A stretch of 47,101 nt of DNA, taken from the IMG/VR virus record IMGVR_UViG_3300046804_001641, positions 1 to 47,101 of that record; one strand, 5' to 3'. The position numbers and the translations under genes are program-made. The stretch is from a virus. Every line of letters begins with the position of its first letter. Within the stretch, counting starts at the first letter, position 1. The notes under the pieces were generated by a model. That model had not been told where the DNA came from. It did no database searches and saw only the letters and a program-made list of their open reading frames with translations. Positions 1 through 29,591 of this stretch are shown here, one piece after another.

Positions 1-3000
1 CTAGCATCAGCGACCACAATCTCAGTATCATACCAGTTCAGTGGTTGCGCTAGTTCTGTTGTTGCAGAAGCATTGATTCTGTAGTAACCAGTGTTGCCCA
101 ACATGTCGTTGAAAATACGGAAACCAATCTCGTTCTCCTGAGTATTCTCGCAGAACAGTGTGACCACTAGCACATCAGTTACGCCCATTGAAATAGAATC
201 AGCAAGCACCAGCGTGTTTCCGTTTTCAATGATAAAGTCGTAATTGGGTAGCAGTTTAACACCGCGCAATGTGACCCAAGTATAGCTCAAGTTGTTGACG
301 TCACGATCCAGTGTGAATCGCTTGGTTGTCAACGAGCTGGTTGTTGTGCTGTCAAATGCGTCAGCTTCGTAGCCCAGTGCATCATAACCCACAGTTGTGG
401 ATATGGTTGCGCTGGTGGTGCCCTGGAACACTTGTGTCCAGATTCTAGCACTGTCATGGTTGCTGAAGCTGACAACTTTGACTTCGTTAGGGTTGTTTAG
501 GTCGTAAACTGTGTTGGCAGTAGGCAACAGTGTGATCGTGTTAGCATCAGTAACAACAAAGTCTGCACCAGTTACTATTGATACCGCAACAATGGAGTTT
601 TCCACAGGTGTGTTAAACAACTGAACGCTACGTGTGGTCACGTGGTCGTTAGGTGTAACAACATAATCCTGGAAGATTTGTAGCAAGCGGCCGTCCACTG
701 ACACTTTAATGTCAGTGTCAGCAATACTGTCTGGCAGGTCTTGTGCTGTGGTGCTCACGTAGAACTTGTTAGTCAGTCCATCAGCAATCACATGCTTGGT
801 GTTGCTTGGGCGTAGACGCAGTCCACCAAATTCCACAATCACGTTGTCGCTTAGAGGAGACGCAGTGTAGATTGGAGAATCCAATGTTATACGATAGTCC
901 TGAGGGAATATGGGAGTGTAAGGATATGTGGGGTTGCTGGTAGTTACATTATAGAAATTGGTATTAATTTCCATGAATGTCTGTGTAGTACTGCTGCCAT
1001 TATTAAACAAGTAAACGTGAATTTGCTCGTTAGCTGATGGTGGTGTACTAAACACCAGCTTGGCGTTGGTCTCAGTAGCTTGGATACTGTAGTTGGTTGT
1101 TTTGACACCGTTAATTAGAACAAAACTACTGATACTGGTTGTTGACAATGTATCACCGTCAAATCCAGCAACTTCAAATCCTAGGCCATCATAGGTGTCA
1201 GTAACGACAGATTGTGTTAACCCAGACAACAGATCCAGTGGCACTGGCAAACGGAAGTCTGTCTTGGTACCGTTGCCGTAGTATTCCATGTTGGTGATTT
1301 CGTTAGCACCAGAACTACCAAACACATAGATATATAGATTGTCTTGTGGTCCCAGCGGATCCACTAGTGTAATTGTGCGGTTGACAAAATTTTGTGTAAA
1401 GTTCAAACCAGGACGTTGGTAACCCAATTGCTTGCTGTAAACAAAAATAGTGTCGTTTAGGCTGCCTGGCTGATCGTAACTGAATGTGTCTTCACCAGTC
1501 TGGCTGGCAAAACTGTGGATACGAATCTCGGGGCCTGCACCATTGTTATCGTAGTCAGAGCCAGGAGTTGAATACACTTTCATGTCCAGTGTATCAAATG
1601 CCTGTCCAGGCACCAGTTCTTCTGGTGCATGGCTGTTGTAAGTGTCAACAAACTTGGCACCGTCAATAATCAAGTCTTCAGCTCTTGTGCCCAGTGCCAC
1701 ATCAGCAAATGAACCATAGTAACGACTGTCATAAGTGATGTTGTCGCTGATGCTGAATGTCAATACTGCACCATTGCTGATGGTCTGCTCAGTGTCCATC
1801 TGTACATAGCTGTTGCCGTTGATAATCACTGATGGTGATATCACTGTAGCAGGAATAGTGCCAGTGCCAGTAATGGTCATACCAGCAACAATACCCACGT
1901 TGCTGGCCACAGTCAGGTACTTGGTAGCACTAACATTGCCCACCATAGTGGTGGACACAGATGTGGTTCCCACAAAGCCAGGACCAAAAACTAGGTCTGC
2001 TGGGTAATCAATACCGTCAATAATCTGTCCAAAGTCGTAACTGCTGACAGTGACAGTGCTATTAGCTGAGATTGTCTGTGCATGATCCAGTGTTGCGTGT
2101 ACTACACCGCCAATATTGGCAAATCCTGTTACCACGCTGGGCACTAGGTTGGCACCAGTAAACTGCATACCCACATGCACATTACTGATATTGGATACAC
2201 GAACATTGGCATTTGCTGTAACGCTAGACAACACAGTCACGTTAAACGTGTCCACGGTCAAGCCTGGTTGACCAGCGCCAGCATTATACAATGCCGCGAT
2301 GCGATCGTTGGTATTTGACAACAATTCCTGATCGTATGGCTCTAGGTTGTCACCACTGAAACTGCTGCCACTGGTAAATGTGTTGGCAACAATGTAAATG
2401 CCGTGGTCGTATGTGACCAATGTGTCAGTGGTGTAGTGCGTATTGGCAAACCAGGGATACACTTGTGTCTTGTATGTCAGACGGTCAAACTTCAGTGTGG
2501 TATTGAAACTGCGAACTTTGCTGTTCTTCAATACTGCATAAGCTCTAGCGTCAGATCCAGAACCACCATCAATAATAATTGTGGGGTTGCTGGTATAACC
2601 GTCACCAGATTTGGTAACAACGATTTCTCTTAGAGAGCCACCGCTGACCACTGCATACGCTTCAGCACCAGTACCGCCACCACCAGTTATAATGATGTCA
2701 GGGTTTGACACGTAGCCAGTGCCAGCATTTTCAATAATGATGCTGTCCACTCGCATGCCGTAATTTTGATACCAGCTGATGTATTCAGGCTGTGTCCATT
2801 TGATGCTATCAGTAGATTCTTCACCACTGGGGCTTCTGTAGCGACCCAATGTAGTATCGTAATATGCTGGCACGTCAAAGTCTGTGACGTCGCCGTTGTA
2901 ATAGTCATTGCCTTCGTAATCCAGCACGTATTCGCGCAGGATAGTTCTGTAGGGCTTAACTTCTTCTATGTACTGTTGTAGATAGGTCTGGTTGTCGTTC

Positions 3001-6000
3001 TGGTAGTTGTTGAACTGTGCCAGTTTACGGATCTTGTGTAGTACACTGATGAAGCTGGTCTTGAACAACCAGTCCACTTGTTTTTGTTCACTCAGTACAT
3101 AACGGAAGAACACAAACAGGAAGTTGCTGAGTTCTGATTTCAATGTCTTGACAAAGATGTCGTAACGGATGCCGTTTAGGATGTTCTTGACAACAATTGG
3201 CAGTGTTGTTGATGCATTCAAGTAGTCAGCATCCACTTGCACTGTGCCGTTCTGTAAGGCAATACTGGTGTATGTGGTGCCACTCAACTGATACAGTTCC
3301 CACTGGCTGCGGCCGTTGTTTAGAACTTTAACGATTGCACCATCTTTGGCAGACAAGCTGACCAGGTCTTTATATTCAGGCACTGTGTGGTTGACCACTG
3401 TAGTAGCACTGAAGCCTTCTGAATAGTAGTCGGCATATGACCAAGCATTCATAGTGTCGTATGCTTGCACATCGTCAGTGATTACCCAAGTGTCGCCAGT
3501 GCCATTTAGTTCGTAAATGGTCCAGAAGCCCTGTAGGCTGCTGTCTTCTCTTACTAGCACTAGTGTTCCTGGTGTGTAAGCATCCACGTTTAGATAGCTG
3601 AGATCCAACAGGTTGTCCACATCAATATCCCAACGTCCGCTGGCTGCTGTGGGCACAGGGGTCTTGTCAACCCAGTAGTTCAAGTTGATCAGTTCGCTAA
3701 TTGGGTGCTTCATGAACAACAGGTTACACCAGTTGATCAGGTTGACCACTGCGGCTTCACGTTCCACAACCATACTCTGGCGTGGTCTGAACGATACACC
3801 ATATTTGTCTGCAACTGGCAAGTTGGTGTCAGGTACTGCTTTGTCTAGACTGTCATATCCAGCCAGACTGTCCAGCATCTTGCGCCAGATCTTGTCAGGA
3901 ATGTCAATATCTGGGTTGCCCTCTTGTAACAATGTGTATTCGCTGTGGATTAGATCGTAATTCTTTTGCACATCGTAGTCAATGTGTAGTACCGCGTTGT
4001 CTGCCGCAATGTAGCTGTCCACGTTGTATAGGCCTACTGTGCTGGCATCCAGTAAGACTGCGTATTCCACGCCTTGTCCATTGGGATCAGCAATCATGTT
4101 GGTGATCTCAGCAATGCTCAATGTCTTCTTGTTGCTGGATTGTGCAGTAATTCCTGATACCCAGTAGTAGTAGTAAGTGGTCAAAACACCTGATACTGGG
4201 TTAACTAAAGTTTCCACCACATATTTGGTATCCGCAGGGTTCTTAACTGTACCAGCACCAGTATATTCGCTAGGCAGTTGGATACTCTTGACCCACTGAT
4301 AAACGTTCACGCTACTACCTGGGAACATCATACCCCAGTTGGTGCTACGGTAAGTGAAATCGCCCTGCTCGTAGTCGATAAACTTACAGGCACTCACGTC
4401 CCACCAGATCTGACCCACTTGTGCATCGCCCCAAGTCAGTGCAGTATCGTAGATACCGCTGGAACTGGTGTTGTAATTGTATCGTGCTGGATCGTAGCTG
4501 GTAATATAATCAATATTCTCAGCAGCTTCACCAGCAATCTTACCCTTGCCTGGGTCGATGTAATCCAGTGTGACCACTTTCTTACCACTTACTTTGTTGT
4601 AAATGTACAAGTTGTTAACATAGTCTAGATCAACACGAGCTTCCTGGTTACGTAAACGTGTCCAGCCTTTGGTGCCAGTAGTATTGGTAAACTTGAACAC
4701 TAGGCCTGCATTGTTGCCGCCTAGATCGTCTTGTGGTGCGCCAATCAGCACTGTGTCTCCAGCAGTGGCAATGGATGCACCAAATTTATCGCCTGCACTG
4801 ATGTCTGAATTGCATAGTTGTTGTGTAAAACCAAACAAGCTGGGGTCTGCGGCAGTGTTACCAGGCTTGTCCAAGTAATCAAACACATATACACTACCGC
4901 CGTTGACCACTGGATCAGTGAATCGGATGGTGTTGGTGTCTAGGACGGTGGCACCACTGTCAAATGTTGTTGGCAAATATGTTGTACCGCCAGTACCAGT
5001 AACAAACAATGTGGCTGAATCGTCAGTCACAAAGATCTTTTCACCAAATTTGGCGTTGCTGGATGGCAATGGGTTATTAATTGTCTGGCTCAAAACGTAG
5101 ATGTCCAAGCCTAGTGCAGTTAACGGTGCTGTGTTATTACCTGGTAATATCTCTAGGCGGTTGAATCCACGCACTGTGTCGCTAGTAATATACAGTTGGT
5201 TGCTGACATTGCTAGCAGTTACACCAGGAATTGCCTTGTTGTTAATGTCGCTAATAACTGATGTCAGTGTAGTACTTGTGAATACCACTTCGTATCCATT
5301 GATACGTAAGCTGTGACCTGCTGTCACGGTGGGATTGGTCACTGTGCCAGTGATTTCTGCATAAACACGGCCCTGATTTGTATATCGGTACACTGAACCA
5401 CTGTCGCCATAAGCGCCGTCGTTAGCTGGACTGCCCACATATAGAGTACAGTTGTTGTTACAGATCTCAACGCCTGTACCAAACTTGTTGTCAACAACGC
5501 CAGTAGTCTCCGACAACTCTTTGAACTGTACTAGATTGTTGGTGTCAATAGTGATCACCTTACCAGCCGCAATGACTGGACTGAATGTGAATGTGCTACC
5601 CACTAAAGTGAAGCCAGACGTTACAACTGTGCCGTCAATGTACACTGTGTACTTGCTAGTAGGTGTGCGGTGTGTTGTGAATGCGGCTGTGACGCCGTTG
5701 GCAACAAAGTTTTCAGTTGTTTTATCAAAAATGTATACTGCACCTGAGTTGCTGACGCTGCCAGTATCGTGGTTTGGAGCACCCACAATCAGTTGGCGTC
5801 CATCTGTCGAACAGGCCACACTGTAACCAAACAGGTCGCCACTGGCGCTGTCTGATCCTGTCACGCTGACGTTGCCAGTGTGTGCTGAATATGTGCTACC
5901 GTTCTTGTAGTATGCGTACACCTTGTTGTTACCAGGAGCACCAACATACAACCAGCTGCCGTCGTCACTTACTGCCAAGCTGTAACCAAATTGGTCACTT

Positions 6001-9000
6001 GCTGAACCGTTGATGTTCTGAGTGCGTGTGTACACATTGCCTGAACGGCTGTACACTGTAACTGCACCAGCACTGCTGGTCGCTGTGGGATCGCCCACAA
6101 TCACTAGGTTGGCTGTGCTAGTAACGATAGTTGCACCAAAGCCGGCGGCGCCAGCAATGTTACTGCTCAATGCACTGGCGTCTTGTACAAACTGTCCGTT
6201 GATATTGGTGTATGTGACCACTTTACCAGTACCATCTGCAGGAGCACCAACTAGTGCTACGGTCTGGTCACTGCTGATTGTCACGCTGGAACCAAATGTG
6301 GCTAAGTTTACGTTAGCTGTGCGTGTAATTTCACCATTTGCAGTCCAGGCATCTTGTTTCTTGTATACTGCCCAGTTGCCATCAGTATCGTCAGTGTCAA
6401 TAAACACTAGGTCGTCAGGCTTCCAGCCATGTGTTGGTGTAAAGCTGGCAACGTCAGACAAGTAATCATATCTAACGCTGTTAAACTTCATCAAGTAACT
6501 GTGTGCGATGTCATTTAGTGCTTCAAAGCTGGACAAATCGTAATTTTCCAGTGTTACGGTGAAGCTGTAGATGTCGTTAATGCTGTCTACTCTAAACACA
6601 CCATCAAAAATACTCTGGCTGTTACGCAATACCACAATGTCACCAGCAATTAAGTTGTGCTGATTGTTACATTGCATGATCACCTGCTGTGTTCCAGCCT
6701 CAGCTGTTACAATATCAGTGATATTGACATCAGTTTCTGTAACACGGTATACATTCCATTTACGGTCAAAGTCTTTGGCTACCCATACCAGAGCACCAAC
6801 TGAGATGCTAGTTAGGCTGGCGTTTAAATTGGTGTAATCAGCAAGATCAAATACAGTTAAATCAATGTCATCTAGACGTGGGTAACCCGCAGTGATTAGA
6901 CCTGCTGAGTTTTCGTAATCATACTGTACGGTGTTAAACAAATTCTCAGTATATGTTGTGGGCCACTTGTATAGATCTGACTTCTTGTAGCTGACAATCT
7001 TGTCGCTGTATACACCCGAGTTGGCAATAAACTCCAGATAGCTGGGTGTGCCAGCAAATTCAGTCTCAGGTAGTTCCACTTCCACATACTGGCTGCTGTC
7101 CAGTGCGCCAAACTCACCAGTGCGTACTGCCCATTCTTCGTATAGGTTGATGTTACCACTAATCTTGTCAAAGTTAGCAGTGGTCAACGCATTAACGCTG
7201 TTTAGTGTGCCCTTCTCTTTGATGTAGCCCTGATATAGTTTCAATTGGCTAACGTCAGTAACACCCAGTTCTTCCAGGTATGCACGTTTGCTGAATCCAA
7301 TCAGCGCCTTGCTGTGATTGGTAAAGTCTGATTCTAGATTGACGTCATTGACATCATAGAATGTCTGGAACACACCTGACTTGTTGTTCAAGTTGGGCAA
7401 CATGGTAGCATTGCTAATATCAGCATCAACTTCTGCCCAGCCGTTGATCTGGAAGTTGTCAGTGCCCGCTAGATCACTCAGCGCAGTGTAAGGTGTCTGA
7501 TTGTATATGACAATGTCACCCTTGTTGTAATCGGTATTTGGATGCCATTCCGTAGTAGTTTGCTGGTTCAAAATAAAACCAGGAGTATTGGGCGAGCCGT
7601 TCCAGTCGGCTGTCTTGTAGCCCACAAACTTCATACGGTACTGACGGTTGCCCAGCTCGGGCTTGTAAATGATGTCGTTAAACACAGTGACATTATTAAA
7701 CACAAAAATGTGTTCATACTGTACCAGATGCAACTCAACAAAACCAATAACACCCTGCTCCAATGTGACAGAAGTGGAGTTATTTCCGTTCTGGTCAATT
7801 AGGCGACTGATACGATATTGTGTTTTGGGGCGAATCTTGAAAGTGTTGTCCAGGATCTTGCTACCCACAGCAGTATTGTCCACTGCATCAATAACATAAT
7901 TTGTTGAGATCAGATTGAGAGTATCAATGACTGGGCTGAACACAATTACTGAGTTTTCGACCCAACCCTGTGCGCTCCAGTGTAGGAATTCTTTAGCACT
8001 TAATAGCCAGTTGCGTGTTTCGCCCAGGTCATTAATGGGTTGGTTAAACACAAAGCCCTGGCTCTTTAGGTAACGCTCGTAGCTGACGAAGAAGTCCACC
8101 ACCTGTTGTTTGGTTTTAAATTCGTATCCATATGGCACAGTCAGTTTGATCTTTTCGTAATCTTTGTAGATCAGTGCCTTTTGGTTACCCACTTTAATTG
8201 TGTATGCATCGCTGTTAACACGGCTGGGGATAATAGTAAAGTATGGATTGTTGTAATCGTAACCTTCCACGCGATATCCGCCAGCAGATTTGACTACAAT
8301 GACCGCACTGTAGTTGACCTTCTTGATTGGCACGCTCTTGTACAAGTGAATGTCAAAATCTTCGTCAGGTACAATAACACTGCTGTTGGTGCTTGTGGGG
8401 CTGGCTTGTTCTGCCAATACCTTGATGTAATTTTTATCTGTGAAGCCAGCAAACTTGTGAACCAGGTTCACGTCGATGTTTGCCACATCAGTTTTTAATG
8501 TTGTTAATGGGTCAATACCCAATCCGCGAATGTAATCAGCTACCCAGTTGATATAACCAGCATTGCTGACTTCTGTTCCGCTGGACTTGTCACCATTAAT
8601 AAATGCATCAGCAACAGTCAGGCGAGTGTTGGTCAGCTTGTTAGTCCATTGATCGCTAACTGTATTTTTGTAATAGTTGTAAGTGTCTAGGAACTTGGCA
8701 AAGTACTGTGCAGGCTTCATTAGAGCAAGTGCAACTTGCACATCAAATGCATAATCACTGCTCTTGGTCCAGGCACTTTCTACTGGACCACCGTCGCCCA
8801 CTACCCAGCTGGCGCTGACAGTGTTGGTGTTTAGTGACAACACCACACTGCTGTTAGGCCCAAGCAATGTACCATGCTCATCAACGGGAATAATAGTGCT
8901 CAACCCTGGACGAGCATACATGTCATTGATGTATTCGCCAGTGTCGTTAAGTTGGTCTGGTCCGTGTAGAATGCGACCTGCTTCTAAGTCTGCCCACAAC

Positions 9001-12000
9001 ACTGTGTTACCGCTAGTGTAAGGTGCTGGGCCATACTCAGCTTCCCACCACCAGGGTTTCTCGCTGAAGCCCAGCATTTCCCATGCGTGGGTGTGTGGGC
9101 GATCAGTGTCATAGTAGTACTGGTAAATCTTTCTCCAGCCGCCTGGCAAGTAGTTGCCGTCAATCTTGTTGGTGCTGGCTCGGTAGTTCCAGGTAAAGTC
9201 GTCACCATTCTTGAAGTCTGAGTTGGTGCTGAAATCCAGTCTGTTGTTGCCTACCCATGTTAAGAAACGGTTGGCAATGATCTGATTGAACTCAGCCAGT
9301 GTGTAGTCGGTATTACGGAACTTGCCTGGGATAATTTCGTGTATGTCCAGACGAGACGCATCGTATTTGACCTTGATGTTGTTGTAAATGCGGTTTTCCA
9401 ATTCAAGGATAACTGCATCACGGAAATCGTTAAATGCTGGCGTAATGCTACCGTCGTGACCCTGGATAACATTCATTGACGTTCTGTATGTGTCGTCTAG
9501 ACGCAGTTCAGGAATGAAGCTGGGGTACATGCCCATTTTGGTGGGTGTTTCGGGAATCCAGCTGCCGTTGGTATTGTTATAATCCACCACAGTCAACACA
9601 TCGCCTGCAACCAGTGTGATGTTGTCAATATTAATGGTTATTGCAGGTCGATCGCTGTTAAATGTAAAGTCACGGCCTAGTATCAGTTGCTCACCATTGC
9701 GGTACACCAGCACACTGCGCTTGCTGGGTTTGAACGGGTCGTAAATGGCAGCAATGTCATAAATCTGTTCTACTGTGGTGATGTTGTAGGTGATTGTTTC
9801 CTTCTGATCGCCGTAACCCAGCATGTCACTGTAATAGAATGGGAATGAGGAATCTTTAACCTGGTTAATATAAGATAATGCTTCGTCAACTGCGCTAATT
9901 GGATCCATGTGATCCAAACCAGACAAGGTTTCTAACGACAACAGGAATCTATTTTTAAATTTAGCGTATTCGCGCTGTGCGTATGTGATACTGTTTACAA
10001 AACTGTAATCAGGATGTGTCAAGAACAGTTGTGCAAATGTTACTGGAGAGCTGTGTTGTAGGATTTTACCACCAACGTTTTTAATGTTGATATCTCGCAA
10101 ATTACTGCTACCAGGGAACACACCAGCGGATAAGGTGCTATTGGTAAAGCACTCGTTCACGTGGTTACGCAATTGGCCCAGTGTCAGGTCAGTGAAGTTA
10201 AAGTTGATACCATTGTATTCCAGGTTTTGTGGAATACTGTAATAGCTACTGGTAGCAGGTGTGCTGTTGTAGATCAAAATATCAATTTTGTCACTAACAG
10301 CAAATGTATATTCTAGATTTAGATATGTCTTGCCACGAGCAGTATAGGTGGTTGCCAGGCTGTTGCTTACTGGCACGTTGTTGACATACACTAGCAAATT
10401 CTTGACAGTGGTGTCAGCGTCAGGCGCACTGTCAATTTCAAATGCAGTGCCCATGTCAGTTGTGTAGATATAGGTGTATTGTTGGAACTGTTTGGTTGGT
10501 GTAGCAACCTTTTGCCACAAGTTCTTCTCTTGATAGTTGGTTCTATCCATGTACTTGTGTACATACCCAGTCTGTAACGCAACAGTTCCTAAATCGTATG
10601 TAAAACTACGAGTGCTAAAGAAGTTCTCAAATACAATATCACCAATGTTGTTAAAGTTGCGATAGGTTAATGGGAATCCCAAGTTCGCATCGTCGGCGCC
10701 AGTACCCACTTTGTATCCGAACAACTCAGTACCGATAAAGTCAGTACCAGGATACACTGTAGTGTCACCAAAACTGTTTCCACTCTGGTCAAACACATCG
10801 AACAATGGTGCCTGGTTAATGTTAGTTTTGATCTGACTTAGTGCCCATTCGGTGCCGTTAAACCAGTAGGTATTACCCTTGCGTGTCGCACCAAACAACA
10901 CAGTCAATTGGTCATATATGGCAATCTCGCCGTCATCTGCTAGTACCAAATGTATCTGTGTGCTGCCGTCATCTTCTGGGTCAACTAGATTGACCACGTA
11001 AATCTTGTTGCGTACATTGTCGTCCAGGTCTGCTGAGAATATTACTCGCATGCCGTTGGTCAATGCGTAGCCATCAATAGTGTAACTGGCTGCACCTTCC
11101 ACATTGCTGAACGCATCTGTTTGTGAAATGTCAAATAGGTCAATGTTGGCCTTGGCCAGCTTGCCTGAATTAAACAACTGCAAGTCGGCATCAAATTCAA
11201 CGATTGGTCGGTTGGCACGAGCTGCCTGGTCAATAATTGGAATAAAGTTGTTGTATACCGCAGTGGCATTGATAACGTCAATATGGAACCAACGGTTGCC
11301 ACGACTCCACACGTTGCGGTCCTGGCTGGCTCGGTTGATTGTCAGGTAATCTTTACCTTGTGGGCTGCTCTGACTTTCGTCATATGCACTGCTGTCAAAT
11401 GCCACACTGTCAAACGGAACTTCCACGTTGTCCAGGAATCCTTCAGGAGTAATCAGTTCAGCAACTGGTACCAGTTTAATTGCACGACCCACGCCCTCAA
11501 CATAGAACTCTTTGTTCTGATAGTAAGTAGGACTTACTGAATTATCAAACAACACTTTTAGGCCATTGGTAAACACTACGCCAGAATTGGTTGTGTAGCT
11601 GCTTTTACCAATGATGTCAGCATCCACATCAACAGTGGTTGTAAACAAGTCGTCTAGAATTCTGATAGTACCATATGCGTCAGGATTACTACTGTCCTGA
11701 TAGTACAGTGTAGTTTCAGGTGCAGTGATAACTGGTACGCGAGTTAGATTGTAGTCGCCAGCAATAGAATAGTATTCTAGGTTGCCAAACTCGGTGCCTT
11801 CTTTAACACGAACTTTTTCACCAGCATCTACGTTGACTAGCCAGTCTAGACGGATGTAAGGATTAGCTGGGTCAGTAACACGATCCACACGCAAACGCCA
11901 CACGCTCACACGGTAGTCAGGATCAACATAGCCTGATCCATCATAAGGCAATGTTGTGTAATTTACAGTAGGGTCAGGATTTGTGCCCACAGCCCACAGT

Positions 12001-12902
12001 TCAGTATTGTTAGCTTGTTCTAGGAACACAATGGTCTTGCCGTCGATATTACGTTGACCATCAATATTGCCCACCGCAGACATGAAGGCATCATAGTTCA
12101 CGTTGGCAAGATCACGATAGTTCAAACGTGTTGCAAGATCGGGTGAATACTTTAATGGCAAGTCCAATAGATAGTCTTGTGCATCCTTGACAGGCACGTT
12201 AAATGTCAGTGTACCAGCAATGATACCGTTGTTAACTACGCCCAAGATCTCACGGCTGCTGACGTTGTCTTGATATGACTTTGTGCCAGATACACCTGGT
12301 TCAGTCTGGATCCAGAACTTGCTGCCGATCTGATCGACAGTGAATGTATAAGTGCCACCGCGCTTTAGGCTGATGGTGGGATTGAATGTGCCAATGTTGT
12401 TAAATGTATAGTTGCCATTGGTACGATCTAGGCTGGTGTTGATAGTGGTGCCAAAGTCCAACGAAGCGTTGGTAATGGATACGCGGTCAGGACCAGCAGG
12501 CAACCAGTAGTACTGGCTGAAGTTTACAAACTTGTCGTAGTCAATTTGTCCGTCAAAGTTATAGTATTCATCGTTGAACAAACGGCTGTGGTTATCAGTC
12601 TTACCATTATAAAATTTAATTTTAGCAATTAAGTCGGGATATGAATTTACATAACTGAGTTTGTCATACTCATCACGAATAACCACACTGGGCTCCAGCT
12701 GATAGTTCTGTCGTGTGGCGTCGGACTCTAGTACATATGGATCGTCAGTCTTGTAGTTAGGTAGAATTTTTCTACCTACAAATCCAGAGATCTTCTTGAG
12801 TTTAGGCTCTGATATTAATTTGTCTACAGTGGCAGATAAAAACTTCTTGTTAGTTTCGGTTTGGAAAAACTCAGGAAGTAAATCAAGAGACCTTATTGGC
12901 AT
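1..12902 (-). CDS. Giant baseplate/tail structural protein in the gp7 position, C-terminus beyond the window
   Basis: The reading frame starts at ATG 12902-12900 (MPIRSLDLLPEFF) and is still open at base 1, giving at least 4300 codons. I read the frame at several places (bases 1-420, 1500, 5100, 6240-6660, 10440, 11700) and found no stop. It follows gp6 by 17 bases in the same operon, where T4 has gene 7, so a role in the outer baseplate wedge or attached fibres is inferred from position. T4 gp7 is 1032 residues, so this is at least four times longer. Visible parts: an aromatic-rich N-terminal region (FSQYYWLP near residue 140), a tryptophan-rich motif KPWWWEAEYGPAPYTSGN near 1285, two W/Y-rich segments resembling carbohydrate-binding modules near 1785 and 3480, seven FG-GAP repeats at about 2195-2745, and two tandem GYxSNPxIIIxGG repeats near 3390-3450. 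The family name is uncertain; that it is a virion protein is likely. Confidence 0.85.
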   Translation of the reverse strand, partial: MPIRSLDLLPEFFQTETNKKFLSATVDKLISEPKLKKISGFVGRKILPNYKTDDPYVLESDATRQNYQLEPSVVIRDEYDKLSYVNSYPDLIAKIKFYNGKTDNHSRLFNDEYYNFDGQIDYDKFVNFSQYYWLPAGPDRVSITNASLDFGTTINTSLDRTNGNYTFNNIGTFNPTISLKRGGTYTFTVDQIGSKFWIQTEPGVSGTKSYQDNVSSREILGVVNNGIIAGTLTFNVPVKDAQDYLLDLPLKYSPDLATRLNYRDLANVNYDAFMSAVGNIDGQRNIDGKTIVFLEQANNTELWAVGTNPDPTVNYTTLPYDGSGYVDPDYRVSVWRLRVDRVTDPANPYIRLDWLVNVDAGEKVRVKEGTEFGNLEYYSIAGDYNLTRVPVITAPETTLYYQDSSNPDAYGTIRILDDLFTTTVDVDADIIGKSSYTTNSGVVFTNGLKVLFDNSVSPTYYQNKEFYVEGVGRAIKLVPVAELITPEGFLDNVEVPFDSVAFDSSAYDESQSSPQGKDYLTINRASQDRNVWSRGNRWFHIDVINATAVYNNFIPIIDQAARANRPIVEFDADLQLFNSGKLAKANIDLFDISQTDAFSNVEGAASYTIDGYALTNGMRVIFSADLDDNVRNKIYVVNLVDPEDDGSTQIHLVLADDGEIAIYDQLTVLFGATRKGNTYWFNGTEWALSQIKTNINQAPLFDVFDQSGNSFGDTTVYPGTDFIGTELFGYKVGTGADDANLGFPLTYRNFNNIGDIVFENFFSTRSFTYDLGTVALQTGYVHKYMDRTNYQEKNLWQKVATPTKQFQQYTYIYTTDMGTAFEIDSAPDADTTVKNLLVYVNNVPVSNSLATTYTARGKTYLNLEYTFAVSDKIDILIYNSTPATSSYYSIPQNLEYNGINFNFTDLTLGQLRNHVNECFTNSTLSAGVFPGSSNLRDINIKNVGGKILQHSSPVTFAQLFLTHPDYSFVNSITYAQREYAKFKNRFLLSLETLSGLDHMDPISAVDEALSYINQVKDSSFPFYYSDMLGYGDQKETITYNITTVEQIYDIAAIYDPFKPSKRSVLVYRNGEQLILGRDFTFNSDRPAITINIDNITLVAGDVLTVVDYNNTNGSWIPETPTKMGMYPSFIPELRLDDTYRTSMNVIQGHDGSITPAFNDFRDAVILELENRIYNNIKVKYDASRLDIHEIIPGKFRNTDYTLAEFNQIIANRFLTWVGNNRLDFSTNSDFKNGDDFTWNYRASTNKIDGNYLPGGWRKIYQYYYDTDRPHTHAWEMLGFSEKPWWWEAEYGPAPYTSGNTVLWADLEAGRILHGPDQLNDTGEYINDMYARPGLSTIIPVDEHGTLLGPNSSVVLSLNTNTVSASWVVGDGGPVESAWTKSSDYAFDVQVALALMKPAQYFAKFLDTYNYYKNTVSDQWTNKLTNTRLTVADAFINGDKSSGTEVSNAGYINWVADYIRGLGIDPLTTLKTDVANIDVNLVHKFAGFTDKNYIKVLAEQASPTSTNSSVIVPDEDFDIHLYKSVPIKKVNYSAVIVVKSAGGYRVEGYDYNNPYFTIIPSRVNSDAYTIKVGNQKALIYKDYEKIKLTVPYGYEFKTKQQVVDFFVSYERYLKSQGFVFNQPINDLGETRNWLLSAKEFLHWSAQGWVENSVIVFSPVIDTLNLISTNYVIDAVDNTAVGSKILDNTFKIRPKTQYRISRLIDQNGNNSTSVTLEQGVIGFVELHLVQYEHIFVFNNVTVFNDIIYKPELGNRQYRMKFVGYKTADWNGSPNTPGFILNQQTTTEWHPNTDYNKGDIVIYNQTPYTALSDLAGTDNFQINGWAEVDADISNATMLPNLNNKSGVFQTFYDVNDVNLESDFTNHSKALIGFSKRAYLEELGVTDVSQLKLYQGYIKEKGTLNSVNALTTANFDKISGNINLYEEWAVRTGEFGALDSSQYVEVELPETEFAGTPSYLEFIANSGVYSDKIVSYKKSDLYKWPTTYTENLFNTVQYDYENSAGLITAGYPRLDDIDLTVFDLADYTNLNASLTSISVGALVWVAKDFDRKWNVYRVTETDVNITDIVTAEAGTQQVIMQCNNQHNLIAGDIVVLRNSQSIFDGVFRVDSINDIYSFTVTLENYDLSSFEALNDIAHSYLMKFNSVRYDYLSDVASFTPTHGWKPDDLVFIDTDDTDGNWAVYKKQDAWTANGEITRTANVNLATFGSSVTISSDQTVALVGAPADGTGKVVTYTNINGQFVQDASALSSNIAGAAGFGATIVTSTANLVIVGDPTATSSAGAVTVYSRSGNVYTRTQNINGSASDQFGYSLAVSDDGSWLYVGAPGNNKVYAYYKNGSTYSAHTGNVSVTGSDSASGDLFGYSVACSTDGRQLIVGAPNHDTGSVSNSGAVYIFDKTTENFVANGVTAAFTTHRTPTSKYTVYIDGTVVTSGFTLVGSTFTFSPVIAAGKVITIDTNNLVQFKELSETTGVVDNKFGTGVEICNNNCTLYVGSPANDGAYGDSGSVYRYTNQGRVYAEITGTVTNPTVTAGHSLRINGYEVVFTSTTLTSVISDINNKAIPGVTASNVSNQLYITSDTVRGFNRLEILPGNNTAPLTALGLDIYVLSQTINNPLPSSNAKFGEKIFVTDDSATLFVTGTGGTTYLPTTFDSGATVLDTNTIRFTDPVVNGGSVYVFDYLDKPGNTAADPSLFGFTQQLCNSDISAGDKFGASIATAGDTVLIGAPQDDLGGNNAGLVFKFTNTTGTKGWTRLRNQEARVDLDYVNNLYIYNKVSGKKVVTLDYIDPGKGKIAGEAAENIDYITSYDPARYNYNTSSSGIYDTALTWGDAQVGQIWWDVSACKFIDYEQGDFTYRSTNWGMMFPGSSVNVYQWVKSIQLPSEYTGAGTVKNPADTKYVVETLVNPVSGVLTTYYYYWVSGITAQSSNKKTLSIAEITNMIADPNGQGVEYAVLLDASTVGLYNVDSYIAADNAVLHIDYDVQKNYDLIHSEYTLLQEGNPDIDIPDKIWRKMLDSLAGYDSLDKAVPDTNLPVADKYGVSFRPRQSMVVEREAAVVNLINWCNLLFMKHPISELINLNYWVDKTPVPTAASGRWDIDVDNLLDLSYLNVDAYTPGTLVLVREDSSLQGFWTIYELNGTGDTWVITDDVQAYDTMNAWSYADYYSEGFSATTVVNHTVPEYKDLVSLSAKDGAIVKVLNNGRSQWELYQLSGTTYTSIALQNGTVQVDADYLNASTTLPIVVKNILNGIRYDIFVKTLKSELSNFLFVFFRYVLSEQKQVDWLFKTSFISVLHKIRKLAQFNNYQNDNQTYLQQYIEEVKPYRTILREYVLDYEGNDYYNGDVTDFDVPAYYDTTLGRYRSPSGEESTDSIKWTQPEYISWYQNYGMRVDSIIIENAGTGYVSNPDIIITGGGGTGAEAYAVVSGGSLREIVVTKSGDGYTSNPTIIIDGGSGSDARAYAVLKNSKVRSFNTTLKFDRLTYKTQVYPWFANTHYTTDTLVTYDHGIYIVANTFTSGSSFSGDNLEPYDQELLSNTNDRIAALYNAGAGQPGLTVDTFNVTVLSSVTANANVRVSNISNVHVGMQFTGANLVPSVVTGFANIGGVVHATLDHAQTISANSTVTVSSYDFGQIIDGIDYPADLVFGPGFVGTTSVSTTMVGNVSATKYLTVASNVGIVAGMTITGTGTIPATVISPSVIINGNSYVQMDTEQTISNGAVLTFSISDNITYDSRYYGSFADVALGTRAEDLIIDGAKFVDTYNSHAPEELVPGQAFDTLDMKVYSTPGSDYDNNGAGPEIRIHSFASQTGEDTFSYDQPGSLNDTIFVYSKQLGYQRPGLNFTQNFVNRTITLVDPLGPQDNLYIYVFGSSGANEITNMEYYGNGTKTDFRLPVPLDLLSGLTQSVVTDTYDGLGFEVAGFDGDTLSTTSISSFVLINGVKTTNYSIQATETNAKLVFSTPPSANEQIHVYLFNNGSSTTQTFMEINTNFYNVTTSNPTYPYTPIFPQDYRITLDSPIYTASPLSDNVIVEFGGLRLRPSNTKHVIADGLTNKFYVSTTAQDLPDSIADTDIKVSVDGRLLQIFQDYVVTPNDHVTTRSVQLFNTPVENSIVAVSIVTGADFVVTDANTITLLPTANTVYDLNNPNEVKVVSFSNHDSARIWTQVFQGTTSATISTTVGYDALGYEADAFDSTTTSSLTTKRFTLDRDVNNLSYTWVTLRGVKLLPNYDFIIENGNTLVLADSISMGVTDVLVVTLFCENTQENEIGFRIFNDMLGNTGYYRINASATTELAQPLNWYDTEIVVADA
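2545..2740 (-). repeat. Two tandem GYxSNPxIIIxGGGxG repeats within the giant protein
   Basis: Two copies of about 32 residues lie side by side: GYVSNPDIIITGGGGTGAEA and GYTSNPTIIIDGGSGSDARA, each followed by a short alanine/valine strand and a turn. Glycine-rich units of this type are common in virion proteins of aquatic T4-like phages and are usually beta-stranded. Boundaries are approximate. Confidence 0.7.
4668..6320 (-). other. Seven FG-GAP repeats (predicted beta-propeller domain) inside the giant protein
   Basis: Seven consecutive repeats fit the FG-GAP pattern (FGxSVxxxxDGxxLxVGAP then GxVYxF): FGSSVTISSDQTVALVGAP, FGATIVTSTANLVIVGDP, FGYSLAVSDDGSWLYVGAP, FGYSVACSTDGRQLIVGAP, FGTGVEICNNNCTLYVGSP, FGEKIFVTDDSATLFVTG and FGASIATAGDTVLIGAP. 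The first FG lies at residue 2203 and the last at about 2707. Four units have a following blade strand such as SGAVYIFDK. Seven is the number that closes an integrin-alpha-type propeller. These domains usually bind proteins or glycans, so a host-surface or fibre-docking role is a reasonable inference. Repeats 5 to 6 and 6 to 7 have longer inserts than the others, and repeat 6 lacks the AP of the GAP motif. Confidence 0.8.
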
Positions 12903-12919: not shown

Positions 12920-15900
12920 TTAGTTAGTAGTATTTACTATGTTGCCGGTCCAGCCCAATTGCGTTGCTGTGATAGAACTAATTACAGTAACATCATCCAC
13001 TGTGGCACAGTTAATAAAAATCTCATCTGGGTTGCAAGTGATCTGATACATGCTACCGAATACGTTATTGTTGCGTGGTACTAATACCACACTGCTGACA
13101 TTGGGGGCCATGACCTTGTGCAAGTAAGCACTCAGTTCACTAAAATAGAATGTGTCGCCAAAGTCCCAGTTGGTAATGGCAAAGTAATTGTTCAAGGCGC
13201 TGATTAAACGACTCTTGATCTCATTATCGCTGACATTAATATTGGGGTTCTTAACCACTTTAAATTCTGCTTGTAAGTTGCTTGGTGCTTTGTTACCAAA
13301 CAATGGTTTAAATCTAGCAGTACTAAAAATAATAGTATCGCTAATGGGCTTGTAATCGTTTAAGCCCTGGAATTCTGTTTGCAGTTCTTCTGCTGTGGGT
13401 GCTGTGGGTTCTGCAATCACTTGTGTGGTGTCTTTAGCGTATGCACGATAGTCAGCATCAAACTGTTTGGTCAACACATACATGTCCATGATGTTGTTGG
13501 GACTGGGATCAATACGACGATTGTTAGGACTATTGTGGCGGTATTGGAAGTACAAGTCCTGGCGGCCTGTGCGCCAGATGTAATCGTTAGTTACAGCTAC
13601 ATTGCTGGTGCCGCCTGTCACTGTTAGTGAGTACATGGCAGCATTGGCATTTGCATAGAACAACTGACCATCGTCATAGCTGGCAATGTTGGCATTGATC
13701 TGTGCCACGTTGGCATAAGATGTTACCACTGTGCCATTGTCAATAGGAGCATAACGACTGAATGTATCATAAGTGTCGGTATCTTTAAAGAACACCAGCT
13801 TGTCATTGGGGTTGGCATCGGGCGCAACCACTGTGGTAAACACATCAGGATCATCAGGTATACCGTCGTTGTTGCTGTCAGCATAAGTTACTTTGATCTT
13901 GGTGTTGTCTTCGTAACCGTCACTTTCAATCACGTTGTCATAAACATACAACGGAATGGGATTTAGGAATTTGTCAGTGCTGTCTGGCTGTTTGTTTACG
14001 CTCAACACCTTGATGTTGTCGTTAATGATGTTGCCAGTCTTGGGATCAAAAATCTTAACACGGTTGTCAAAGTAGAAGCGAGTTTCCAACACGCTTTCAA
14101 AGTAGAAAGTCAAATTGCGATAAGTGACTGTGTATTGTTGATTTACGTTGGTAAACTTTAATAGCCAGCTGGAATCCAGTGCAGTACTACTGGTATCGCC
14201 AGCATAGGCCTCGCTGAAGTCGCTAGTGGTATCCAGGTTCTCGTTAGTAACAATCTTCCACTCAGCTAGTTCAGTATCGTATCTCAAACCAAACTGGCGA
14301 TACAACTGGATGCTCTCTAGCACCTGTTGTTCCACCTCAGTTGTCAACACATTGCTGAACTTGGGGATAATTTCGCTAACAACTGCACCAGTGGGAATAT
14401 TGTCACTTAGGATAACTGCACCATCGCCGCTGGGCAAAATACCAGTGCTGCCATTACCCTGGCTAGTACCGTCATCAGTTACTGAAACCACGCTGGTCCA
14501 GATAACATCACGTTCACCCTCAGCAGTAGCAGTGCCAGATACCAGCACGTTTCGGCTGTTAAAATAGTAACCTGCAGGCGCAGTAAACTTGATCATCGCG
14601 CCTGTGGTAATATACTTCTTATTATCGCTCACATAAGTGCCCAACTGTTGAGCAACATATGAAGATGATACTGAATTGTATCCACGGAAATAACCAGTAC
14701 TCTGATTAGTATCAATTGATACCTTAGCCCAGGTTACTGGCCCAGTGTATGGGGAGCCTAGTGTTATTGTGTAACGGCCAAATTCTTCATAGAAGAAGTT
14801 GCGGACTTCTTTGCTTCGCAACACATCTAAAACCTGGTTACGGATAACTGTGCTGATGTCAGTTACAGTGTTAAATGTAAACGTAAATGAGCCGTCAGTG
14901 ACATCACGATAGAACAAACCATCTTGTCCAAAAATGTTAGTGCTACTGTACTTGCCTGTGGTATCCACAACGTCCAAGTAACGGCTGATACCTGAGCTGG
15001 TACGGTTGACTGTTTTGACACGCAGGATGTTGTTGTACTGTGCGTATGGGAAGATATTGTAGTCTTCACCGTTGACCATACGGTTCTGTGTATAGTACTG
15101 TTGTGGTGCTCGAGTCTTGATATCCTCTAGAGCTTCACGGCTGCTGGCATTGCTGACTGTGCTCTGCAAGCTGGCAGTCAACGTTAGTGTTTCAATACGA
15201 CCTGCGCGGCTGAAGTAGGGCACTGACAACGAAATGTTTTGCATTTCGTCAGGAGTAATCTTGTAAGACAAACCGTTGCTCTGGCGGAAGAACAGACGAT
15301 ATGTGCCTACTGGAATCTCAGCAAACACACCGTCGCCAAATACCAGATCAATCTGGTCGTTGCTACGGCTGCTGATTTCAAAAATCTTACGTGTGGTCTG
15401 ATTTAGCGAATTGTATACTACGTTGTTGCTGGCCACGCTGGGCACTGATGTCCAGGTTTCCTGCACACGGCCAGTGGAATCCATCTTGTACAACCAGACG
15501 TCTGAGTTGTTGATGTTGTCGTAGTTGATGTTGACCACGCGGTTGGGTAGACTTTCAGTTAACGTAAAGTCAATATTGTTCAGTTGGCCTTGCTTAAAGA
15601 ACAGGAACCAGCCAGTGTTGACACTGCTGTTGCCCTGGTTGTCATTCTTGTAGAGCATGTTGAAAGTACCACGTGGCTGTGGATCTTTCTCATAAATGTA
15701 TGTTTTGTCATAGCTGGTGCCGCTGACTGCTTCGAATGGAGTGTCTACACCGTCCACGCGAGCGTTGAACGTCAACGCTGGAATGGCGTTGCTCAGGATG
15801 TTCAGCTGGTACTCTTGTGTCACCACGTTGTTAATGGTGTTAGTATGTGCTGATTTGCCCACCAGCTGACTGTTTACTAGGGCAGCATTGATGATGGCGT

Positions 15901-16372
15901 TGAACTGTTCGTGCCAGTTGGCATTGGTAACATCGTTCCAGGTGACGCCCACATCAGCAATGTTGTTGCCTTCAGTGTCAGTTACAGTTTCCGATGTGCG
16001 AATGGTATCAATTTTTAGGAAACCGCTGGCAGGCACGTTGCGCTTGGGTGTGTAGCTGATCAGTTTGGCCAGCTTGAGAATACTGTCGCGGCGCTCGGCC
16101 GTGTCTAGGAAGTTTTCACGGGCATTCAGGTCGGTGCGGAATGCCAAGCTCTGACCCAGGAACGCAATCAGGTCGATCAGAGCGATAAATTCGGAACTTT
16201 CAGTAAAGTCGTTAAAGTCTTCAGGATAGTAAAGACGCAAGTAGTCAATCATGCTCTTGCGAATGGTTTCAAAGTCGTAGCTCTGGAAGTTGGCTTCGCG
16301 GAAAGTCGTGTAGAGTGTGGTCCAGTCCTGGGCCGCTAATAGTGATGTCTGACGTGATGTGGTGGATGCCAT
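12920..16372 (-). CDS. 6: Baseplate wedge protein gp6
   Basis: This 1150-residue protein is the T4 gp6-type wedge component, which forms the ring around the hub and drives the sheath-contraction switch. The N-terminal 130 residues carry the family signature: a helical start (DWTTLYTTFREANFQSYDFE), then YLRLYYPEDFNDF and ALIDLIAFLGQSLAFRTDLN, followed by RENFLDTAERRDSILKLAKL. The C-terminal third holds the conserved sequence around SDTIIFSTARFKPLFGNKAP and a long beta-rich end. T4 gp6 is 660 residues; the extra length lies mainly in the middle and looks like beta-rich insert domains. The gene follows gp25 by 47 bases that contain a late-promoter-like element, and precedes the giant gene by 17 bases. 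The start ATG has a weak AGGTAAAG ribosome site. Confidence 0.93.
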   Translation of the reverse strand: MASTTSRQTSLLAAQDWTTLYTTFREANFQSYDFETIRKSMIDYLRLYYPEDFNDFTESSEFIALIDLIAFLGQSLAFRTDLNARENFLDTAERRDSILKLAKLISYTPKRNVPASGFLKIDTIRTSETVTDTEGNNIADVGVTWNDVTNANWHEQFNAIINAALVNSQLVGKSAHTNTINNVVTQEYQLNILSNAIPALTFNARVDGVDTPFEAVSGTSYDKTYIYEKDPQPRGTFNMLYKNDNQGNSSVNTGWFLFFKQGQLNNIDFTLTESLPNRVVNINYDNINNSDVWLYKMDSTGRVQETWTSVPSVASNNVVYNSLNQTTRKIFEISSRSNDQIDLVFGDGVFAEIPVGTYRLFFRQSNGLSYKITPDEMQNISLSVPYFSRAGRIETLTLTASLQSTVSNASSREALEDIKTRAPQQYYTQNRMVNGEDYNIFPYAQYNNILRVKTVNRTSSGISRYLDVVDTTGKYSSTNIFGQDGLFYRDVTDGSFTFTFNTVTDISTVIRNQVLDVLRSKEVRNFFYEEFGRYTITLGSPYTGPVTWAKVSIDTNQSTGYFRGYNSVSSSYVAQQLGTYVSDNKKYITTGAMIKFTAPAGYYFNSRNVLVSGTATAEGERDVIWTSVVSVTDDGTSQGNGSTGILPSGDGAVILSDNIPTGAVVSEIIPKFSNVLTTEVEQQVLESIQLYRQFGLRYDTELAEWKIVTNENLDTTSDFSEAYAGDTSSTALDSSWLLKFTNVNQQYTVTYRNLTFYFESVLETRFYFDNRVKIFDPKTGNIINDNIKVLSVNKQPDSTDKFLNPIPLYVYDNVIESDGYEDNTKIKVTYADSNNDGIPDDPDVFTTVVAPDANPNDKLVFFKDTDTYDTFSRYAPIDNGTVVTSYANVAQINANIASYDDGQLFYANANAAMYSLTVTGGTSNVAVTNDYIWRTGRQDLYFQYRHNSPNNRRIDPSPNNIMDMYVLTKQFDADYRAYAKDTTQVIAEPTAPTAEELQTEFQGLNDYKPISDTIIFSTARFKPLFGNKAPSNLQAEFKVVKNPNINVSDNEIKSRLISALNNYFAITNWDFGDTFYFSELSAYLHKVMAPNVSSVVLVPRNNNVFGSMYQITCNPDEIFINCATVDDVTVISSITATQLGWTGNIVNTTN

Positions 16373-16419: not shown

Positions 16420-16797
16420 TTATGCGACAGTGAGCTTTTGGCTGTCTCTGTCAAAGTTCAAGTACATGACCTGACTCTGATCGTATTCGGAATATTGTAA
16501 ACGAAGCTCTATCTGAATACCATGATCAAACTCAGTGATATTGATATCGTTTATTTGTAGTCGTGGATCGTAGCTGGCAATGCGCTTGACGTCGTCAGTC
16601 AGCACTGATTTTACGTCATCGGTCAGGTTTTCAAATAGCAAACTCCAGATCACAGTGCCAAAGTCAGGGTTCATCAGCTTCTCACCTTTTTTAATGTGGA
16701 AGTGATTGATCAGATCCTGTTTGATCAGTTCTGCATCTGTCAGTTTGAATTTTTTATTGGCAGCAACGGTGCTGAAACCACGATAAAGAGTACGCAT
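16420..16797 (-). CDS. 25: Baseplate wedge protein gp25 (GPW/gp25 family)
   Basis: A 125-residue protein, close to the 132 residues of T4 gp25. This family is the conserved sheath-initiating lysozyme-like wedge component found in contractile tails and type VI secretion systems. Typical features are visible: an N-terminal DAELIKQDLINHFHIKKGEK, then MNPDFGTVIWSLLFENL, a core VKRIASYDPRLQINDINI, and a closing beta-strand (MYLNFDR). It lies between the gp5-like needle and gp6 in the operon, matching the close association of gp25, gp53 and gp6 in the T4 wedge. The start ATG follows an AGGATT ribosome site, and a TAAATA element lies about 25 bases upstream. Confidence 0.95.
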   Translation of the reverse strand: MRTLYRGFSTVAANKKFKLTDAELIKQDLINHFHIKKGEKLMNPDFGTVIWSLLFENLTDDVKSVLTDDVKRIASYDPRLQINDINITEFDHGIQIELRLQYSEYDQSQVMYLNFDRDSQKLTVA

Positions 16798-28461: not shown

Positions 28462-28679
28462 CAAAAGAATGGAAGTCCAGACTTTTTAGTTGTTTCCATG
28501 TTGTCTTTAACTATCTTGCTGATAAGTTCGCGTTCCTGTTGGGATAAACACATGGCATCGTCGTAACTGAGTCCACCACGCATGTACCAGGTCATACGCA
28601 ATGCATCATCTTTAAAGGCTTTTGATTCTTTGTCGAACTGATCCAGCAGTCCCACGATGCTCTCATTGTCTAATGTCAA
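28461..28679 (-). CDS. Tail assembly chaperone extension (gp51-position), expressed by -1 frameshift
   Basis: A 72-codon frame ending in METTKKSGLPFF, with the core MTWYMRGGLSYDDAMCLSQQ followed by ERELISKIVKDN. Read alone it has no ATG start; only a TTG (28679-28677) overlaps the gp26-like stop. The frame is also open upstream, and an in-phase slippery heptamer lies 12 bases before that TTG. After a -1 shift it continues from gp26-like residue 282 through RSRL into this sequence, giving a fusion of about 358 residues. It follows the gp26-like gene as T4 gene 51 follows gene 26, but T4 gp51 is 249 residues, so orthology is unproven. Beside the tape measure gene, a G/GT-type chaperone role is the best explanation. 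The zero-frame protein and the fusion would both be made. Confidence 0.7.
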   Translation of the reverse strand: MTLDNESIVGLLDQFDKESKAFKDDALRMTWYMRGGLSYDDAMCLSQQERELISKIVKDNMETTKKSGLPFF

Positions 28680-29536
28680 AAGCCTTGAGCGAAAAAACGA
28701 GCGTAATCGAATTCAATCTCCAGTTTGAATTCTTTTTCACAAGCTGAACACTTGCTATCAATGGGTTTAACACCCAGTTCTTTGGCGTTTTCTTCCATCC
28801 TTTCCTGCACTGTACGCATAATAGTGCTGGGTGAGTTCACGTAGAACTCACGAATGAAACGTGGATTTGTCACCACCTGATTGTCCTCAGTAGTGATACT
28901 TTCAGTGCTGTTAGCAACATTATCAATACCCAGATCAGTCATAGACTTGGTGTAATCTTCTAGACGTTTCTGACGAACTTCAGATTTAATAGTATCATCT
29001 ACCATAGTGTTGATGATCTTTTGCTGTTCATATGCTACCAGGCTGGCTTTGCTGGCCTGCAGGTAGTTCATGGGTTTCAGTTTGATAGCTAGTCCGCTGG
29101 TCTCTACTGGTTCACGATAGTTGGGCATACGGATTCCACCCAGCACTGATGCCAGGTCAATGTCGTAGTCGTGTTCTTCAGAGCAGTGTGGGCATTTGCT
29201 GCTCACTGACATACTGGGTCCGTAGCTGGCAATGCGAATAGCCAACAACGTGCTGTCCACGTCCACTGTGGGCATTTTCCAGGCGTCCTTGACGTTGGGC
29301 GCACAACTTTCAATTACTTTAACCACGCTGGTGCCGTTCAACAACGCATCGGGTGTGCGTAATGTGATTTCGTCTTTGGTGGTCATGGGAAAGATGGGAA
29401 TTTCCCCAGTCGCGGGCAAATCCAGTGATCCGTCGGGCCAATAACTGCCTTCGCTAGTCAATTTGACATATAATGCGGGTTGGCGAAAGTGTTTCGCTAA
29501 TGGGTTTACTGCTGGTGTTGCACTTGGTTGAGTCAT
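28676..29536 (-). CDS. 26: gp26-like baseplate hub / tail assembly chaperone protein
   Basis: A 286-residue protein of the T4 base plate protein family (gp26 type). The start is set at ATG 29536 (MTQPSATPAVNPLAKHFRQP), since the upstream part of the open frame crosses the promoter region and does not look like protein. Core features are LYVKLTSEGSYWPDGSLDLP, FPMTTKDEITLRTPDALLNG and a SYGPSM turn, typical of this family. It has two cysteine knuckles, CPHC at 115-118 and CSAC at 263-266, likely sharing a zinc ion. Near the C-terminus the sequence DYARFFAQGF ends the zero frame, and the two Phe codons form the slippery site for the longer fusion. Divergent from the tape measure gene, with interlocked late promoters between them. 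In T4, gp26 is needed for hub assembly but its molecular role is poorly defined. Confidence 0.85.
   Translation of the reverse strand: MTQPSATPAVNPLAKHFRQPALYVKLTSEGSYWPDGSLDLPATGEIPIFPMTTKDEITLRTPDALLNGTSVVKVIESCAPNVKDAWKMPTVDVDSTLLAIRIASYGPSMSVSSKCPHCSEEHDYDIDLASVLGGIRMPNYREPVETSGLAIKLKPMNYLQASKASLVAYEQQKIINTMVDDTIKSEVRQKRLEDYTKSMTDLGIDNVANSTESITTEDNQVVTNPRFIREFYVNSPSTIMRTVQERMEENAKELGVKPIDSKCSACEKEFKLEIEFDYARFFAQGF
28691..28697 (-). promoter_or_regulatory. -1 ribosomal frameshift slippery site T TTT TTC
   Basis: The minus strand reads CGT TTT TTC GCT in the gp26-like frame, placing T TTT TTC exactly in X XXY YYZ phase. Both Phe codons re-pair perfectly after a -1 slip. It lies four codons before the zero-frame stop, and the -1 frame is open through to 28461. 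Downstream there is only a weak 4-base stem (TCAA/TTGA). Confidence 0.7.
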
Positions 29537-29547
29537 TTCTACAGTCC

Positions 29548-29555
29548 TATAAATA
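29548..29555 (+). promoter_or_regulatory. Consensus T4 late promoter (TATAAATA) for tape measure and head genes
   Basis: An exact match to the T4 late -10 consensus. Start near 29562 gives a leader of about 30 bases to ATG 29592 and excludes the ATG at 29556, which abuts the element. Confidence 0.75.
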
Positions 29556-29570
29556 ATGGATACTACCACA

Positions 29571-29578
29571 TATTTATT
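29571..29578 (-). promoter_or_regulatory. Late promoter -10 (AATAAATA) for the gp26-like operon
   Basis: Minus-strand AATAAATA with predicted start near 29564, giving about 28 bases of leader to ATG 29536. It faces the plus-strand TATAAATA 15 bases away, so the two promoters interlock. Confidence 0.5.
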
Positions 29579-29591
29579 GGCACAAACCCCC

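Follow-up and report, generated by a model that had tools for sequence, protein, structure and literature searches.

A predicted integrin-alpha-type FG-GAP propeller in a giant baseplate-operon protein of uncultured T4-like phages

The DNA analyzed here, referred to as the window, is the IMG/VR virus record IMGVR_UViG_3300046804_001641 at its full length of 47,101 bp. Its open reading frame (ORF) at 3-12902 on the minus strand encodes a giant protein, and the part encoded at 4668-6320 of the same strand, i.e., amino acids (aa) 2195-2745, was confirmed by structure prediction as an integrin-alpha-type seven-bladed beta-propeller of the FG-GAP_2 sub-family. A possible, still doubtful overall reading is that this propeller is an adhesion or docking hub from which T7-fibre-like and flagellin-IN domains are extruded, and that the slot holding it is an exchangeable baseplate socket, which may contain a propeller, a YHYH domain, Gly-rich repeats or nothing and would let uncultured jumbo phages refit their baseplates.

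Seven FG-GAP repeats in the giant protein

Seven FG motifs are present, at aa 2203, 2255, 2305, 2358, 2474, 2619 (as FGEKI) and 2707, one in each of seven units on the minus strand: blade 1 (aa 2193-2246, window 6165-6326), blade 2 (aa 2247-2297, 6012-6164), blade 3 (aa 2298-2349, 5856-6011), blade 4 (aa 2350-2400, 5703-5855), blade 5 (aa 2463-2512, 5367-5516), blade 6 (aa 2613-2695, 4818-5066), and blade 7 (aa 2696-2748, 4659-4817). Blade 6 was assigned by a hidden Markov model (HMM) and the structural model, and the other six by these two together with the motif and the superposition described below. A long loop with the conserved pattern TTFD...D...T.F.D is found within blade 6, and its D2648 and D2655 are invariant in the alignment (A2).

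The Pfam family FG-GAP_2 (PF14312) was matched with 84.1 bits against a cut-off of 23 (E 7.5e-24), with just four stretches of the repeat region passing individually. By an HMM of relatives from which the window was excluded, all seven units were scored at 16.8-55.7 bits (each with E 2.6e-7 or better), a result that is partly circular since the ancestor model was seeded from the window's own blades. As controls, this HMM was run on 80 locally shuffled relatives, with 0 to 2 hits, and on the giant shuffled 100 times, with 0 to 1 hits and a best score of 6 bits. A sequence profile of the region matched integrin alpha-6 (6.1e-5) and alpha-M (approximately 5e-4). The seven FG-GAP repeats proposed in the initial annotation are thus upheld by the motifs and by the HMM, and two of its more specific expectations had to be given up. 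PF01839, the family that it had named, was unreported at E <= 1 in the Pfam search of the giant and was dropped for PF14312. Calcium-binding DxDxDG loops were counted in 14 of 1622 family blades, compared with 6 in shuffled sequences, and in none of the window's blades; this count ruled out the calcium-binding sub-type.

Predicted structure of the propeller

Because the HMM began from the window's blades, structure was taken as the independent test. The input of AlphaFold2 was aa 1985-3050 plus 54 relatives. The resulting model has a predicted local distance difference test score (pLDDT) of 87.4 and a predicted template modeling score (pTM) of 0.82, and its strand order corresponds to seven four-stranded blades. 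Among the listed PDB matches of the model, nearly all are integrin alpha propellers (Foldseek E 2.8e-12), and superposition on integrin alpha gave a Z of 39.4 and a root-mean-square deviation (rmsd) of 2.5 Å over 347 residues. The whole-ring superposition spans model residues 200-766 with a Z of 38-39, and propeller-only chains are included in the matches, such as 4wk2, aligned from its residue 1 to 452. It is from this whole-ring superposition, rather than from coordinates, that closure of the ring was deduced. The integrin-type propeller suggested initially was therefore borne out by a model whose ring can be overlaid on complete integrin-alpha propellers (Z 39). The predicted propeller is interrupted and not one compact block, with extra domains in blades 4 and 5 in addition to the long loop in blade 6. 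An alignment rebuilt for folding omits rows L313, L308, L100, and L137.

The slot and its distribution among relatives

A single-protein search with the propeller for close relatives returned just one overlapping contig, and a C-flank profile search of IMG/VR gave at least 586 encoded relatives. The sample analyzed consists of the best 80 of each IMG/VR scan, and is biased towards the queries; its 320 loci were reduced to 214 distinct proteins, cultivated phages included. Four or more blades were found in 177 of the 214, with seven blades in 88, six in 66, and mostly five in the rest. All the testable blades, i.e., those with both flanks visible, lie within the slot (1056/1056).

The slot is bordered by two flanks whose conservation was mapped by BLAST. 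The N-side flank (aa 1985-2192, window 6327-6950, minus strand) is conserved as far as blade 1, and its match stops at aa 2182-2192 in nearly all of about 75 relatives; the C-side flank (aa 2749-3020, 3843-4658, minus strand) is kept in all relatives (alignment A1). The slot is approximately 560 aa in the window, and its length is highly variable while that of the flanks is not. These sequence comparisons place the propeller as an insert that separates two conserved domains of the giant. The slot is empty (about 42 aa) in the relatives L067 and L071, and in L062 a YHYH domain (PF14240, E 5e-31; 3272-4351) replaces the propeller within the propeller clade. In L102, L105, L106, and L117, it is filled by Gly-rich repeats similar to a repeat located downstream in the window's giant (aa 3384-3470, window 2493-2753, minus strand), which is common to phrog_460 and phrog_1922.

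Evolution of the propeller

On a C-flank tree of 95 rows, presence of the propeller needs 3 changes, compared with 28 for shuffled labels. Exceptions inside the clade are L067 with its empty slot and L062 with YHYH, and in a third, L091, the contig ends within the propeller. By this tree, the propeller is the mark of one uncultured clade. The tree itself does not tell which way the changes went, and one gain plus two losses is its simplest reading. A rapidly swapped host-range domain was rejected as a simple reading since the tree needs just the 3 changes.

For pairs having 70-80% identity at the C flank (C flank 74%), the identity was 58, 72, 69, and 65% for the slot, the preceding core, the N flank, and the downstream part, respectively, and within the slot of the same pairs it was 66% for the blades and 57% for the between-blade parts. 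Together with the tree, the low conservation of the slot and the faster change between blades mark the propeller as an inherited, faster-evolving module, which is probably an exposed part of the giant.

Domains inserted in blades 4 and 5

Two additional domains were located by the strand order of the model, each between the third and fourth strands of its blade. The blade 4 insert (aa approximately 2401-2462, window 5517-5702, minus strand) was compared as a profile (A9) with PDB, and matched the tail fiber 6w4q (E 7.9e-8), 23sh (1.4e-6), 9k4a (3.8e-5), and 8vbx (5.6e-4); the matches fall in the N-terminal or docking regions of phage tail fibers and depolymerases. Phage_T7_tail (PF03906) was matched by 3 of 22 insert members (best E 9.4e-4), the window's copy giving no match. 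The insert was also aligned by hhalign (96%) to aa 1030-1112 of the same giant, where the predicted structure of aa 1033-1109 (window 9576-9806, minus strand) resembles residues 187-250 of CBA120 TSP4 (Z 8.6, rmsd 1.9, 64 residues). Weak Foldseek matches at aa 1033-1109 include other tailspike and fiber N-terminal regions.

The Flagellin_IN-like blade 5 insert (aa approximately 2513-2601, window 5100-5366, minus strand) occupies the third-to-fourth strand hairpin. Flagellin_IN (PF07196) was matched by 10 of 20 members (best E 3.7e-6) and not by the window's copy. Compact family members lack the inserts and keep all or most blades in slots of 474 (L118), 407 (L093), and 395 aa (L060), and the blade 4 and 5 inserts are considered later additions because of these compact members.

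The giant protein and its operon

The giant was assigned to the baseplate because of its operon position and the annotation of its orthologues. On the same grounds, the original placement of the propeller inside a giant baseplate chain stands: the chain adjoins gp25- and gp6-like wedge genes, and its orthologues in PA5oct, RaK2, Atu_ph07, and Phosso are virion structural proteins. The gp25-like wedge subunit (125 aa; 16420-16797, minus strand) was identified by phrog_261 (E 8.9e-17) and phrog_43 (E 1.6e-14), and the gp6-like wedge subunit (1150 aa; 12920-16372, minus strand), which lies directly upstream of the giant ORF, by phrog_10646 (E 3.1e-301) and phrog_219 (E 5.2e-24). The giant, taken from the ORF list, matches phrog_10938 with 1122.8 bits, and by this homology and the gp25-gp6-giant order it belongs to the phrog_10938 virion structural protein class of PA5oct/RaK2-type jumbo phages; its length of at least 4300 aa is a lower bound as the ORF runs off the contig end. 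Orthologues are encoded by PA5oct, Phosso, and Atu_ph07 with the same operon order and by RaK2 and SCTP-2, where synteny is less complete, and that of PA5oct is annotated in its record with electrospray ionization tandem mass spectrometry (ESI-MS/MS), i.e., as detected in virions. Also encoded in the window are a major capsid protein of T4 type (PF07068, E 4.9e-101), a portal protein, and further tail and baseplate proteins. Because related contigs are 221-338 kb, a jumbo phage is suggested.

The only link of the giant to T4 gp7/gp8 is its position after gp6. Comparison by hhalign of family profiles with single T4 gp7 and gp8 sequences gave nothing above 15%, and neither protein appears among the structure matches listed for the N-terminal model. 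By BLAST and hhalign, a Gly-rich repeat was the sole similarity of the giant to T4 gp6-gp11 and cyanophage gp7/gp8. T4 gp7 may itself have a propeller-like domain. Among the structure matches listed for aa 1-1160, none was gp7-like or convincing over the whole chain; the best partial matches are the CBA120 TSP4-like stretch and a cupredoxin-like stretch, which is interrupted (aa 146-416, window 11655-12467, minus strand; rusticyanin, Z 10.4, 97 residues).

Other observations were made on the giant and around it. A carbohydrate-binding module 5/12 (PF02839, E 1e-6) was found at aa 1785-1808 of the giant (7479-7550, minus strand), with weaker matches in the PA5oct, Atu_ph07, and Phosso orthologues. 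A T4_baseplate protein (PF12322, E 2.5e-16) is encoded at 28676-29662 on the minus strand, apart from the wedge operon. Two long neighbor proteins at 41089-43686 and 43739-47101 on the plus strand share weak matches to phrog_27397, phrog_697, and a spectrin-repeat model, which suggests coiled-coil paralogues.

Possible roles of the propeller

We see an even chance that the propeller is exposed on the baseplate and works there as a binding module, most probably as an accessory adhesin for a host-surface ligand. In this view, a large uncultured clade of T4-like jumbo phages would have gained the propeller a single time, at its base, in a loop linking two conserved structural domains of the giant following gp6. 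The propeller would since have been passed down as part of the giant, with rare loss (L067) or a swap for YHYH (L062). On the baseplate wedge it would face outward and hold the baseplate to the host-surface ligand, and the variable domains projecting from the blades may shape what is bound. Adhesion is favored because of the fold, the variability of the slot, the exchange for YHYH, and the occurrence of different propeller types at the baseplates of other phages. In T4-like baseplates, a part in host recognition has been attributed to the YHYH domain (PMC7029224), and the baseplate propellers include phi11 RBP, which has an N-acetylglucosamine-sized cavity, and phiKZ gp131C (PMC4901313). Several points weigh against this role. 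Host-range determinants are typically swapped fast, whereas this propeller varies only moderately more than the sequence around it and has been inherited with the protein across divergence reaching approximately 40% flank identity. For aa 1-1160 of the giant (fold with pLDDT 86), no known baseplate protein fold was matched convincingly. The motif, predicted fold, fixed position, and clade distribution were computed, whereas a binding role, with its site and ligand, and exposure on the wedge are what we infer. The T7-fibre-like domain in blade 4 fits fiber docking equally.

Docking would make the propeller a rigid hub for tail fibers or spikes, which would attach via the domains protruding from blades 4 and 5, and we regard this as possible but rather unlikely. 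The profile relationship of the blade 4 insert to N-terminal regions of tail fibers and depolymerases, and to the CBA120 TSP4-like domain of the same chain, is in its favor, and vertical inheritance together with the near-flank conservation of the blades would suit an internal partner. However, T7-tail-type domains occur widely in phage structural proteins without necessarily docking anything, and docking through the inserts cannot be the ancestral role because compact members (L118, L093, and L060) have blades and no room for inserts. A propeller that merely fills space or makes wedge-to-wedge contacts in an oversized baseplate, with no ligand, would agree with inheritance as part of the giant and with a slot length that varies widely between flanks of steady length; the slot is nevertheless empty in L067 or taken by YHYH in L062 inside the clade with the flanks kept, and the least conserved part of a protein would be unusual for a load-bearing contact. 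We consider such a spacer improbable, and the least likely of these three roles, below adhesion and docking. That the repeats resemble a propeller by chance or through low complexity is hardly credible: the few single stretches passed by Pfam alone would allow it, and against it are the confident model with its integrin-alpha match at Z 39, the 177 relatives with blades, and the almost complete lack of hits in shuffled sequences.

If adhesion is right, a clade of abundant uncultured jumbo phages would carry an integrin-like adhesion fold in the baseplate machinery, in a fixed socket with differing contents. Since hundreds of relatives exist in IMG/VR, the socket could serve as a clade marker and as a defined piece of approximately 560 aa to express for ligand tests.

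Comparison with known systems

The nearest structural counterparts are integrin alpha chains. Integrin alpha-M (9t3y) and alpha-5 (4wk2) have seven FG-GAP blades, as here, and superpose over the whole ring with a Z of 38-39 and an rmsd of 2.5-2.6 Å, at approximately 17-20% sequence identity. The predicted propeller of the window differs from them in having no calcium-binding loops, and neither a beta partner nor a role in cell adhesion is known for it. The I domain of integrins sits between blades 2 and 3. The extra domains of the window's propeller are placed differently, inside blades 4 and 5.

The initial annotation knew of no T4 baseplate protein with an FG-GAP propeller, and this claim of novelty is weakened. 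FG-GAP is not new to phage baseplates because the "gp8 baseplate wedge" protein of the T4-like Synechococcus phage S-MbCM6 (AFD02696, 7022 aa), a giant directly after gp25 and gp6, carries FG-GAP_2 (E 1.8e-40). It also has many copies of a Gly-rich repeat of the type at aa 3384-3470 in the window, and YHYH, LamG, and Reelin-type domains. Neither the conserved core nor the flanks of the window's giant were found in the S-MbCM6 giant by BLAST or hhalign, and the FG-GAP block of S-MbCM6 seems from these comparisons to be an independent acquisition. FG-GAP is annotated also in phage nt-1, S-TIM5, and UFOVP1367, and integrin-like hemagglutinins in Atu_ph07 and AP-J-162 (PMC11242549). These two phages, like Phosso, encode a giant orthologous to that of the window. 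Atu_ph07 and Phosso have FG-GAP in separate genes, with frames of 409 aa in the former and 3702, 3182, 429, and 398 aa in the latter, and their own wedge-operon giants are without it. Phosso (PV764938.1) has 42 FG-GAP_2 matches at approximately 48,300-68,900 and 92,400-94,000, mostly in the two longest of these frames, which makes it a jumbo phage unusually rich in FG-GAP.

The orthologous giants of cultivated phages, PA5oct gp355, RaK2 gp465, Atu_ph07 gp180, and Phosso 294, have the same operon position and conserved flanks. No FG-GAP was found in the giants of the cultivated orthologues compared, and the slot is short in RaK2 and has other content in Phosso and Atu_ph07. The uncultured clade corrects the impression likely to be gained from cultivated phages, whose compared orthologues lack the domain at the slot. 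Literature searches (FG-GAP with phage baseplate or with cyanophage, and beta-propeller with baseplate wedge), in which subscription journals were thinly covered, gave no paper on the module or its clade distribution. Other beta-propellers at phage baseplates, considered to bind host glycans, are phiKZ gp131C and the five-bladed RBP of Staphylococcus phage phi11 (PMC4901313). These are of other propeller types and belong to separate peripheral proteins, whereas that of the window sits in a wedge-operon giant.

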